Of a DNA stretch of 64,000 nt, positions 18,504 through 22,131 are shown one piece after another. The notes beneath the pieces were generated by a model that was not told the origin of the DNA, did no database searches, and was given only the letters and a program-made list of their open reading frames with translations. Numbering within the stretch: position 1 is the stretch's first letter; every line of letters begins with the position of its first letter. The DNA is from Methylophilus sp. 13 (GTDB lineage Bacteria; Pseudomonadota; Gammaproteobacteria; Burkholderiales; Methylophilaceae). Location of the stretch: NCBI RefSeq assembly GCF_015354335.1, contig NZ_JADKYR010000001.1:806001-870000 (forward strand), given 5' to 3'. The position numbers were made by a program, and so were the translations under genes.

Positions 18504-19751
18504 TTATTTACCGTACACCGGGAATTGATCGGTCAAGGCATGCACCTTCGCCTTGGTGGCCGCAATCACTTCAGCGCTTTCCGGATTATCCAGCACATCG
18601 GCAATCAGGTTAGCCACTTGCTCGGCTTCGGCTTCTTTAAAGCCACGCGTTGTGATCGCAGGCGAACCGATACGAATACCGGAAGTCACAAACGGGCTCT
18701 CGGGGTCGTTAGGAATCGCATTCTTGTTGACCGTAATGTGCGCTTGGCCCAGATAAGCATCTGCCGCCTTACCCGTCAAGCCTTTAGGACGCAGGTCCAC
18801 CAGGAATACATGAGACTCGGTACGGCCGGAGATAATACGCAAACCACGCGCAGCCAACGTGCTGGCCATGATGCTGGCGTTCTTCAATACCTGTTCCTGA
18901 TACGCTTTGAAGTCTGGCTGTGCCGCTTCGAGGAAAGCTGTCGCCTTACCGGCGATAACGTGCATCAACGGGCCGCCTTGCAAGCTTGGGAACACATTGG
19001 AATTCAGTGATTTTTCAAACTCGGCCTTGGCCATGATGATACCGCCACGTGGACCACGTAAGGTCTTGTGCGTGGTTGAAGTCACAAAGTCAGCATGGGG
19101 CACCGGGTTAGGATAGACACCCGCTGCAATCAGGCCAGAATAGTGCGCCATATCGACCATGAAATAAGCACCGACTTTTTTAGCGATTTCAGCCATACGC
19201 GCCCAGTCAAAACGCAAGGCATACGCAGAAGCACCCCCAATCAACAACTTTGGTTTGCACTCCACCGCGATACGCTCCATCTCATCGTAGTCGATCTCTT
19301 CTTTATCGTTCAAACCGTAAGGCACGATATTAAACAACTTGCCGGACAGGTTAGCCGGAGAACCGTGTGTGAGGTGACCGCCGTGACCCAGATTCATGCC
19401 CATGACGGTATCGCCTGGTTTCAGGATGGAGAAATACACGGCCTGATTCGCCTGTGAGCCAGAATGTGGCTGCACGTTGGCATACTCAGCCCCATACAAG
19501 GCTTTCAGTCGGTCAATCGCCAGCTGTTCAACCTGGTCAACAAACTCACAGCCACCGTAAAAGCGTTTGCCTGGATACCCTTCAGCATACTTGTTCGTCA
19601 ATTGCGAGCCTTGGGCTTCCATCACCGCTGGACTGGTGTAGTTTTCTGAAGCAATCAACTCGATATGCTGATGCTGACGCTCCACTTCGGAAGAAATCAT
19701 TTGGGCCAAGGCCGGGTCTGCAACGCTTAAGTTTCTTGAAAAGCTAAACAT
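18504..19751 (-). CDS. glyA: Serine hydroxymethyltransferase
   Basis: The start is ATG at 19751 (MFSFSRNLS). The 415-residue PLP enzyme shows [54 protein letters not shown] and the PLP-binding lysine in [14 protein letters not shown]. It converts serine and tetrahydrofolate to glycine and methylene-tetrahydrofolate, supplying one-carbon units for biosynthesis. In methylotrophs with the serine cycle the enzyme is also central to carbon assimilation, but no other serine-cycle gene is seen here. Confidence 0.97.
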
Positions 19752-19827
19752 GACGATCAAGTTTCCGTATCACAAAAATAAAGCGCGATTTTAGCATGAG
19801 GCGACCTCAGCATCCATCTTTAGCGAT

Positions 19828-19842: not shown

Positions 19843-19880
19843 CTATCACTTTGAGGCGTGGTGTAATCCAGACACAAAGC

Positions 19881-19895
19881 GCACCAATACAGTGC
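19881..19895. promoter_or_regulatory. Candidate NtrC enhancer site
   Basis: GCACCAATACAGTGC matches the NtrC palindrome core GCAC-N7-GTGC exactly and is followed by A, as in the consensus TGCACC...GGTGCA. It is centred about 120 bp upstream of the predicted sigma-54 start site. A further half-site, TGCACCA, lies at 19924-19930 (about -80). These distances are typical of enhancer sites for sigma-54 activators. The assignment to NtrC rests on motif match only. Confidence 0.55.
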
Positions 19896-19949
19896 AAACA
19901 TCACCAGCCTGATTGAAACAACATGCACCAAAAAACAGAATTAAATACT

Positions 19950-19962
19950 TAAGCAATTGATT
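19950..19962. promoter_or_regulatory. Candidate IHF-binding site
   Basis: TAAGCAATTGATT read on the opposite strand fits the IHF consensus WATCAANNNNTTR exactly. It lies in an AT-rich tract at about -58 to -46 from the predicted start, between the NtrC-like sites and the sigma-54 promoter. IHF bends DNA at this place in many sigma-54 promoters. Confidence 0.5.
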
Positions 19963-19981
19963 TAAATTATTTTTTTAAATC

Positions 19982-19996
19982 TGGCACAGCTTATGC
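19982..19996 (+). promoter_or_regulatory. Candidate sigma-54 promoter
   Basis: TGGCAC-AGCTT-ATGC matches the -24/-12 consensus TGGCAC-N5-TTGC in nine of ten positions with the exact GG-to-GC spacing. Transcription should start near 20008. It points right, away from glyA and towards a terminator only 30 bp beyond the start, so its product must be a short RNA. Confidence 0.6.
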
Positions 19997-20007
19997 TTAA
20001 TAAGATG

Positions 20008-20068
20008 CGTAAGCGTATATCTCCAAAATCGCTCCCTAAACCCAACTTCGGTTGGGTTCTTTTTTTTC
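20008..20068 (+). ncRNA. Candidate nitrogen-regulated small RNA, about 60 nt
   Basis: The RNA is inferred from a sigma-54 promoter (start about 20008) and an intrinsic terminator (20039-20068) on the same strand, with no protein gene that needs either. The 5' part is a mostly unpaired stretch of about 30 nt containing CTCC and CTCCC, which could pair with ribosome binding sites. The 3' part is the terminator hairpin with its U tail, as in Hfq-dependent sRNAs. The family is not recognised. Upstream NtrC- and IHF-like sites predict induction under nitrogen limitation. Confidence 0.5.
20039..20068 (+). terminator. Rho-independent terminator
   Basis: AACCCAAC-TTCG-GTTGGGTT forms a perfect 8-bp stem with a stable UUCG loop, followed by C and eight T. 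The T run is on the plus strand only, so it ends rightward transcription. The leftward asmA-like gene ends at 20092 and has no T run in its own direction here. Confidence 0.85.
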
Positions 20069-20091
20069 AGGGGATGCTGTCTTGTCTTGAC

Positions 20092-22131
20092 TCAATGTTG
20101 ACGCATTTTTAATTGTTGCAAGGTTTGCTGGCAGCCTACATCCGTAGTTGCACTTTGATCGCCCGGATCGAGAAATGGCAGGATGGCGGCAAACGGATTG
20201 ATCAATGCCAGTAATATGCCGCCAGCGACCCGTGCGGCAATCGGTCCCGGGCTGATCGAAACCTGGGGGTCCACAAAAGGCCCTGTCACCAGAATAGGTG
20301 AGCGCACGGTTAACGGCGAAAAGTTTTTAGGACTGGCCTGGAGTTTAAGGTTGAGCTGCTCCTGACCCAAATCGACGGCACCATTGACCGTGACGGTCGT
20401 CACAGGCGTATCAATCACGGCTGCCTCTGGTGTCAAAACACCCTCTTTGGCCCGCCAGCCCATCGCGGCGCAATGCATGGGCAAGGGCTGGTCGCCCTTG
20501 ATCATGACACCAACCGCTTGAGCGATGTCTAAGCCAGCCGCCTCAATCAACAAGTGAGACATTTCCCCCTGACGCACCATCAGGGCGAGCTGACCATCCA
20601 GCGAGCGCAATAATTCGGCGGTTGAGCGGCCATGCCCCTGCAGCTTGGCACGCCCATTCAATTTACCGCTCACATAAGCTGGCGCCGGCTGTTGGCTGGT
20701 CTCTTTGGCTGCGTCACTGGTCGATTTTTTATCCGTCTGTGGCGAGACTTTTAGCCATTGTTCCAAACGGATATCATGCACCGCCAGCGCAATCTCCCAA
20801 TCCGGGGCAGCGGGTGGCGACAAGTCGGCGTTCTGCACATCATGTGCATCAATCGATAGCGCGCCTGAGAGCGAGCCTTGAGCCGTACTGGCCTCCAGCT
20901 CTGCCAGACTTAACTTGTGTTTTTGCAGACGCAAGCGCAATTTAAGCGGTGCAATGCGCTGCCTGAAGGCCGATCCTAAATCGACCGCATCAATATGCAC
21001 ATCGATATCCGCATTCATGCGGCCATAGGTCGTAAAATCCAGCGAGGTATTTGGAAACAATTTGCCTGGATGCGGGTTGCTTGTTGATGAAGTCGCTGCA
21101 GCGCCAAAGGCGGGCGCCAAATCCGCCAACATCAATAAAGACCCTTGCAGTTTGCCAGTCAACATCGGCGTTTCTGGGGCAAGATCATACACAAACTGTC
21201 CCGCCAGCTGACTGTTGCCAATGTGTGCAGAGGCGACATTCACAGCCCACTGCGTCGCGTTTTTTTCAACCGCCGCCTTGATTTTGAAATGCGGTGTCCT
21301 AGGGAATGTCAGGCTCAGCAAGTCCCCGACATCGGCCAGCGATGAACCTTTTACCTCTACCTGCCCCTTGACACGCTGGACACCCAACACATCATATACG
21401 GCACCGCGGAACGTGGCATGCACGGCACCATACGTTAACCATCCTTGCGAGTTAACTGGCGGTGAGTCCTGCCCCTGAGTCGCGATCGGTAAAAAGCCTT
21501 GCGTCACCAATGCGGCCTGCAAGGGCAAACGACGGAACTGACCATCCACTTTGATTTGCGATTCCGGCGTTTTAAGATGGGCGCCCTCTTCGGTATAAAA
21601 CTTGACGTTCAGTTGCGCATCCGTAACGGCATCGGCAACCTTGGCTTGCCCCTCATTAACGGCCAGTTGCTCAATGATGGGAAACGGACGGGGCGGACTG
21701 CCGTCATCCAGCTCAAAATCCCAACTGGCCTCTTGGTTGGCATGGCGGATCATGTAAGCATTTAAACGGTCCGCGCGAATCGACGCAATGCGATAAGGAT
21801 CGCGTGCTTTGAGTGACCACAGGTCGCGGTAGCGCAACGCCAGCGACAAGCCATGCGCTTCAACAAAATAAGGCGCGTCAAAGCCTGCGGGCGCGGCAAT
21901 TCTCAATCCGCCTACTTGCAACCGGATGCCACCCAGCAATTGCAAATGGAAAGGACGGTCTATGATCACGGCCCGTTGCAACTGATTTTGCAACGCGGTT
22001 TGCAGGGGTTGGCGCAAAAAAGGCCAGCCCAGCATTTCGCAGACCATGACTACAAAGACAAGCACAAGTAGCATGCCCCCCAGCCAGCGTGCAAACAGGG
22101 GAGCGCGAGGTGTTTTATCAATATCACTCAT
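20092..22131 (-). CDS. AsmA family protein
   Basis: A 679-residue protein with one N-terminal membrane helix (about 14-33) and a long, mainly beta periplasmic region. AsmA features include LGGIRLQVGGLRIAAPAGFD near the start and the C-terminal LLIEAAGLDIAQAVGVMIKGD and IDTPVTTVTVNGAVDLGQEQLNLKL. The end is rich in SPILVTGPFVDPQVSISPG. AsmA proteins belong to the AsmA/TamB/YhdP group implicated in phospholipid transport and outer-membrane homeostasis. It is monocistronic by appearance. Confidence 0.88.
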   Translation of the reverse strand: MSDIDKTPRAPLFARWLGGMLLVLVFVVMVCEMLGWPFLRQPLQTALQNQLQRAVIIDRPFHLQLLGGIRLQVGGLRIAAPAGFDAPYFVEAHGLSLALRYRDLWSLKARDPYRIASIRADRLNAYMIRHANQEASWDFELDDGSPPRPFPIIEQLAVNEGQAKVADAVTDAQLNVKFYTEEGAHLKTPESQIKVDGQFRRLPLQAALVTQGFLPIATQGQDSPPVNSQGWLTYGAVHATFRGAVYDVLGVQRVKGQVEVKGSSLADVGDLLSLTFPRTPHFKIKAAVEKNATQWAVNVASAHIGNSQLAGQFVYDLAPETPMLTGKLQGSLLMLADLAPAFGAAATSSTSNPHPGKLFPNTSLDFTTYGRMNADIDVHIDAVDLGSAFRQRIAPLKLRLRLQKHKLSLAELEASTAQGSLSGALSIDAHDVQNADLSPPAAPDWEIALAVHDIRLEQWLKVSPQTDKKSTSDAAKETSQQPAPAYVSGKLNGRAKLQGHGRSTAELLRSLDGQLALMVRQGEMSHLLIEAAGLDIAQAVGVMIKGDQPLPMHCAAMGWRAKEGVLTPEAAVIDTPVTTVTVNGAVDLGQEQLNLKLQASPKNFSPLTVRSPILVTGPFVDPQVSISPGPIAARVAGGILLALINPFAAILPFLDPGDQSATTDVGCQQTLQQLKMRQH

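Follow-up and report, generated by a model that had tools for sequence, protein, structure and literature searches.

A predicted NtrC/sigma54-dependent small RNA gene beside glyA, conserved in Methylophilus and related genera, and its sibling RNA

The interval between glyA (18504-19760, minus strand) and a gene encoding an AsmA-like protein (20092-22131, minus strand) of Methylophilus sp. 13 contains transcription signals on the plus strand, which raises the question of what they serve. Region 19880-20067 (plus strand) of the window, the whole 64-kb stretch of DNA analysed, shows an NtrC site, an IHF-like tract, a sigma54 -24/-12 box and an intrinsic terminator, ordered around a predicted non-coding RNA of about 60 nt. 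Since glyA is divergent and the AsmA-like gene convergent, no protein gene accounts for these signals; the first-pass annotation had described the same layout, with no protein gene on the plus strand to explain them, and the ORFs agree with it. The NtrC-type enhancer site, CGCACCAATACAGTGCA (19880-19896, plus strand), is centred about -120 from the predicted start and contains the palindrome GCACCAATACAGTGC at 19881-19895. A TGCACCA half-site is read directly at 19924-19930 (plus strand). In the AT-rich tract between enhancer and promoter, the IHF-like site TAAGCAATTGATT (19950-19962, minus strand) is an exact reverse-strand match to WATCAANNNNTTR, which we take to be the IHF consensus. The sigma54 promoter, TGGCAC-N5-ATGCT (TGGCACAGCTTATGCT), is at 19982-19997 (plus strand). 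The coordinates first given for these elements hold. The window has a single NtrC palindrome with a sigma54 box following 70-98 bp away, and 100 shuffles yield no such pair. The GCAC-N7-GTGC palindrome by itself has two occurrences in the 64-kb window, and exact IHF matches number six; single elements are unremarkable alone, and their combination is the rare thing.

The genome encodes the regulators that such a module needs: an NtrC gene (716 bits, cut-off 558.6) and RpoN. The sigma54 pattern TGGCAYN6TGCT has 47 matches in the genome versus nine for the reversed pattern, and GCACCAN5GTGC has 10 exact sites. Six of these 10 lie 76-106 bp from a sigma54 box and make up five promoters: those of glnA (two sites), a gene encoding an ANTAR protein, a gene encoding a circularly permuted ATP-grasp protein, a nitrate-sensing/cyanase region, and the RNA. 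In the fourth, the NtrC/sigma54 pair has a nitrate-sensing protein upstream and a cyanase downstream. Another exact site is upstream of an ammonium transporter gene, and the remaining three lack such a box. The spacing between NtrC site and promoter at glnA and others is like that of the RNA locus. At the ANTAR locus (L103:1501-1885, G000:C8:276878-277262) the NtrC/sigma54 module directly precedes the gene of a 77-aa protein in which ANTAR is the only domain found.

Within the genus, a BLAST search with 19860-20075 gives matches in 20 of 21 genomes, its own included, and a single match, to the AT-rich tract only, in 40 other genomes. The genus genome in which BLAST gave no match (G007) is in 430 contigs. 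The RNA core is present in 19 genus loci, and all 19 aligned sequences retain the terminator. The 20th genome (G015) shows only a partial BLAST match; it has a diverged RNA adjoining glyA, with a perfect NtrC palindrome. The gene glyA adjoins the RNA in all 18 genus loci in which the contig permits the test (L014 is cut), and also in L239. Some loci of the genus (L010, L015-L019) gave no AsmA-like neighbour and have a phosphomannomutase-type gene downstream of the RNA. TGGCA and TGCT of the -24/-12 box, like UCUCC of the RNA, are invariant in the 19 aligned sequences, and the sigma54 promoter directly precedes the RNA in all of them. In each of 18 genus loci compared, the best NtrC match begins 98-111 bp ahead of the -24 box and agrees with 10-14 of the 14 positions of what we assume to be the NtrC consensus. 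The comparison for which the first-pass annotation had called, of promoter and hairpin in close relatives, does not refute its reading: the NtrC site, the -24/-12 box, the RNA core and the terminator are kept together beside glyA. Two of its other elements are present here and do not recur in the same form. The TGCACCA half-site is not seen in aligned relatives and is therefore probably non-functional. The IHF match is exact in this genome only, and 17 relatives show best partial matches of 7-8 of nine informative positions, some of them elsewhere, such as AT-rich DNA may yield by chance.

The small RNA gene, here type A, is placed at 20008-20067 (plus strand) by its predicted +1 at 20008, a covariance model and covariation. 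In all 18 loci compared, the predicted +1, 12 bases beyond the C of the -12 element, lies at a conserved AGCG or up to 4 nt ahead of it. Folding of 20008-20068 gives a z of -4.2, and none of 200 shuffles is equally stable. A 5' hairpin (20012-20033, plus strand), AGCG/CGCU with the loop UAUAUCUCCAAAAU, carries the putative seed AUCUCCAAA (20019-20027, plus strand), which is complementary to UUUGGAGAU of ribosome-binding sites; a second motif, CUCCC (20032-20036, plus strand), covers the hairpin end and the linker in alignment and fold. All 31 type A sequences compared have the UCUCC of the seed unchanged, and its pairing probability is about zero; of the CTCC/CTCCC sequences first described as exposed, CUCC is predicted unpaired here. 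The terminator (20039-20067, plus strand) has an 8-bp stem, AACCCAAC-TTCG-GTTGGGTT (20039-20058), with a UUCG loop, followed by C and U8; the hairpin with its C and eight T is read directly, at the place of the strong plus-strand terminator first annotated at 20039. In a model-fitted alignment of 40 type A sequences, 67 compensatory cells are found against 15.1 in shuffles, at 10 of 12 pairs: three of the four pairs of the 5' hairpin and seven of the eight of the terminator. RNAalifold on the unfitted alignment recovers the terminator hairpin only (six of seven pairs covarying) and not the 5' hairpin, so support for the latter comes from the fitted alignment and single-sequence folds. Module, RNA, conservation and covariation are properties read from the sequence itself. 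Rfam gives no match in the window, nor for the type A and type B loci L001, L058, L049 and L085 at E<=1, and a known Rfam RNA was therefore rejected.

Three other readings of these signals concern what the promoter and the hairpin serve. The hairpin was rejected as terminator of the convergent AsmA-like gene, its U-run being on the plus strand only. The promoter might drive a longer transcript, the leader of a downstream co-oriented gene, with the hairpin as attenuator; some relatives in which no AsmA-like neighbour was found do have a co-oriented phosphomannomutase-type gene about 300-700 bases downstream of the RNA. However, no long plus-strand ORF intervenes in the window ahead of the convergent AsmA-like gene, every one of the 19 aligned sequences retains the terminator, and the neighbours vary while the RNA does not. 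We consider this reading very improbable, and a leader of a downstream gene was rejected for want of a long plus-strand ORF in the window. It is hardly credible that the transcript instead codes for a very small peptide and does not act as RNA: this genome does have an ATG overlapping, or immediately before, the predicted RNA start, but it is absent in the aligned relatives, whose RNAs start with CGUAAGCG, UGUAAGCG, UAAGCG, CAAGCG or AAGCG, and any reading frame is shifted by insertions and deletions in the loop. The peptide was rejected because its start codon is not conserved. A base-pairing small RNA under NtrC and sigma54 is the reading we hold to be probable.

Outside the genus, type A RNAs were located through the covariance model in g7, g46 and g10, all of the same family. 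The glyA synteny is found in 19 of 21 examined loci of other genera, and also in L238 (g10) and L246 (g15). The model matches 162 of 187 genomes at E<=1, a figure that does not measure how widespread type A is, as type B and numerous weak matches enter into it; among the weak matches in the reduced-genome genera g14, g16 and g45, the three read in g45 (G127, G131 and G132) include no type A. Conservation of the predicted RNA, together with its promoter and its place next to glyA, extends from Methylophilus to at least three more genera of Methylophilaceae. Two longer RNAs of about 110 nt, each preceded by a sigma54 promoter and ending in UCUCCUCCUC and a terminator, are present at L247:1501-1632 (g11) and L248:1501-1634 (g2); neither glyA nor glgA is adjacent within the stretches examined, and L248 has an NtrC palindrome upstream.

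A second covariance-model match in the same genome (G000:C7:205321-205410; L058:1521-1611, plus strand) is a predicted sigma54-driven RNA, AAGCUUCUCCAAAGCUAACUUCUCCUCCCUC, with a terminator. This sibling, type B, shows the seed UCUCCAAA in a hairpin loop and the linker UUCUCCUCCC. It lies downstream of glgA, and glgA and orn both adjoin it in 25 of 26 loci; L091 lacks both. NtrC control of type B was rejected: the best matches within 450 bp in the 26 loci score 8-11 of 14 and share no position, and one recurring match of 8 of 14 at about -110 sits in the glgA coding sequence, whereas type A shows 10-14 of 14 at a fixed position. As type B has no NtrC site at a consistent position, another sigma54 activator of the genome is expected to control it; the genome has 13 matches to the NtrC model, some of which cover the receiver domain only. 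A second xoxF-type paralogue (G000:C7:209207-210526) is about 4 kb from the type B RNA, and about 4-5 kb in G003, G009 and G017. A scan with the promoter and seed pattern over species genomes (84,980 species) gave 92 stretches, of which 80 were sorted as loci: 54 type B, 23 type A and three neither, with a T-run following in 75 of the 80. Methylophilus methylotrophus is among the species with the locus (L316). By taxon, 58 of the 80 belong to Methylophilales, 14 are unspecific and one, which has a full type B, comes from a Sulfuritalea MAG. The other seven, from a planctomycete, Lentzea, Pseudomonas, Saprospiraceae, Bacteroidales, Fibrimonadaceae and Prochlorococcus, do not have the conserved tail and appear to be chance matches, though they are counted among the 80.

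The seed UCUCCAAA is common to both types, and in both its UCUCC is predicted unpaired. In one xoxF copy and in a porin gene, its complement, UUUGGAGA, overlaps with the ribosome site. The pattern TTTGGAGA-N2-10-ATG has 25 matches in the genome versus seven for the reversed pattern, several of them not gene starts; this excess is what any Shine-Dalgarno-like word would give, GGAGA being an ordinary ribosome site. In a small background sample of 34 ORFs of this genome with GGAG before ATG, one shows TTTGGAGA and 13 show GGAGA. Genes behind the TTTGGAGA sites include those of a PQQ-dependent methanol/ethanol-type dehydrogenase, hexulose-phosphate synthase, a porin and SfnG, and of proteins that by eye are AhpF- and Tpx-like; a further site precedes a gene adjoining a VWA-domain gene and presumably resembling mxaK. 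The dehydrogenase, too, owes its XoxF label to inspection by eye; with NCBIfam, a truncated stretch scores 423 bits against a cut-off of 480. In this genome the other xoxF copy has TCGGAGA in place of TTTGGAGA. For hps, TTTGGAGA is found in eight of eight genus loci and in none of the loci read in other genera, and hps was rejected as a family-wide target.

Of 22 genus genomes, 21 have TTTGGAGA in the xoxF-type leader according to a pattern search, among the matches listed, and a protein search shows it in the remaining one, G001. Leaders found by pattern were assigned from shared sequence, and the protein was checked for 29 loci and for G004 and G008. Among the matches listed, the leader has TTTGGAGA in g1, g7, g46 and g10, and CTATGGAG or CTACGGAG in g2, g3, g5, g6, g11, g12, g13, g14, g16, g17, g44 and g47; TTTGGAGA without a type A found occurs in g8, in three of four leaders of g45 and in two of three of g9. 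A CCTTAGT element is conserved shortly ahead of the ribosome site in most xoxF-type leaders of the family (L206-L232). The base before UCUCC in glyA-linked type A and the base after GGAGA in the xoxF leader are complementary in 37 of 38 genomes among the matches listed, tallied by hand over genomes with both sides read, those with one side being dropped: 33 are A/U, four U/A and one U/U. By genus, Methylophilus shows 20 A/U and the U/U of G015, g7 shows 11 A/U and the U/A of G026, g46 two A/U and g10 three U/A. The U/A cases are two lineages, G029/G096/G097 (g10) and G026, so that only three lineages among the 38 genomes depart from A/U; two agree and G015 does not. An unrelated RNA away from glyA in G021, A/A, also disagrees. 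The porin leader has 10-11 bp of complementarity in four of four genomes, the pairs being counted by hand: the leader is identical over 46 nt, with 10 bp of pairing, in three species that have porins 71-81% identical to that of this genome, and a fourth species has 11 bp. The target proposal based on UUUGGAGA, xoxF and the porin, is suggestive only, and the targets named for the RNA are speculative and in our view less probable than not.

Two further readings accept the RNA and differ in what its loops bind. It could be a sponge or protein-titrating RNA, with the UCUCC/CUCCC loops binding a protein or another RNA and not ribosome sites of mRNAs, since protein-titrating RNAs also carry repeated short motifs in hairpin loops; but CsrA-binding RNAs use GGA, the motif here is CUCC, and the complement of CUCC is a ribosome-binding site, and we judge a sponge improbable. 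An NtrC-driven base-pairing RNA that does not target xoxF, hps and the porin, its seed being directed at different genes of nitrogen use or transport, has in our view an even chance. The 25 TTTGGAGA-N2-10-ATG sites and the imperfect xoxF covariation favour it, as does NfeR1, an RNA with an anti-Shine-Dalgarno (anti-SD) motif whose predicted targets are mostly transport genes and which represses ntrB (PMC7143759, PMC10746234). On the other hand, the genomes checked keep the sites in the xoxF leader and the porin, at 9-11 bp of complementarity. Both type A and type B are most likely base-pairing repressors of translation.

Free-standing small RNA genes under sigma54 and an enhancer-binding protein are known, as in Qrr and GlmY/GlmZ; these differ from type A in their activators (LuxO and GlrR), their RNAs and targets, and belong to gammaproteobacteria. 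The closest analogue of type A is MmgR (alpha-r8, Rfam RF00519) of Sinorhizobium meliloti, a short RNA with an anti-SD first loop, induced by NtrC and nitrate-limiting conditions, for which RpoD and RpoN promoters are listed and which couples nitrogen status to carbon storage (PMC7143759). It differs from type A in being alphaproteobacterial, with 77 nt, three stem-loops and a link to PHB/phasins (PMC7143759). The RF00519 covariance model gives no match in the window at the gathering score, and the longer RNA of L247, from another genus, reaches a sub-threshold 23.4 bits versus 41. NfeR1/alpha-r14 is a nitrogen-stress RNA with several paralogues, whose CUCC-type anti-SD loops block translation initiation (PMC10746234, PMC7143759). 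Such loops and sibling copies are shared with types A and B; unlike type A, NfeR1 has three hairpins and a sigma70 promoter that is LsrB-activated and NtrC-repressed (PMC10746234, PMC7143759). The alpha-r14/cuckoo arrangement, CCUCCUCCC in each of three hairpin loops, is found in neither type: type A has one UCUCC loop and CUCCC, and type B one UCUCC loop and a CUCCUCCC linker. CcsR1-4 of Rhodobacter sphaeroides are homologous siblings reported to modulate C1 metabolism; they have an RpoHI/RpoHII promoter and arise by processing of a single transcript that also carries the DUF1127 protein CcaF1 (PMC10253847). The neighbours of type A are glyA and the AsmA-like gene. NcS25 of Burkholderia was rejected, no sigma54-like motif being upstream of it in the part of PMC10117139 available. 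As types A and B match no Rfam model, they resemble MmgR and NfeR1 in presumed action and are not members; we take type A, predicted from sequence, to be a previously undescribed RNA family whose kind is already known, that of NtrC/sigma54-dependent RNA genes, which is not a homology family, with an anti-SD motif. No small RNA work in Methylophilaceae was found in the open-licence PubMed Central literature.

We therefore propose that the locus is a free-standing small RNA gene, read by sigma54-RNA polymerase and controlled by NtrC, IHF possibly bending the DNA; with this control, the RNA would be produced under nitrogen limitation. The RNA of about 60 nt would fold into a short 5' hairpin and the terminator, and loop and linker would expose UCUCCAAA and CUCCC, pair with Shine-Dalgarno regions and block translation; expression under nitrogen stress and this repression are what we infer. 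Likely targets would be messages with UUUGGAGA at the ribosome site, including those of the XoxF-type methanol dehydrogenase and the outer-membrane porin, with less carbon oxidation as the result when nitrogen is short. Type B, with the same seed and a sigma54 promoter without a recognisable NtrC site, would add a second signal onto overlapping targets. The full form of the proposal, a sibling pair widespread in Methylophilaceae under NtrC (nitrogen) and another activator at the glycogen-synthase locus (carbon) that shuts the XoxF and porin ribosome sites as a C/N balance device, is rather unlikely at present. Methylophilus is used in single-cell protein production, where matching methanol to nitrogen is relevant. 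A conserved RNA predicted to be nitrogen-controlled in Methylophilus, Methylotenera and relatives would give a handle on how methanol oxidation is matched to nitrogen supply, and a seed common to two differently controlled siblings makes the integration of carbon and nitrogen by RNA directly testable.
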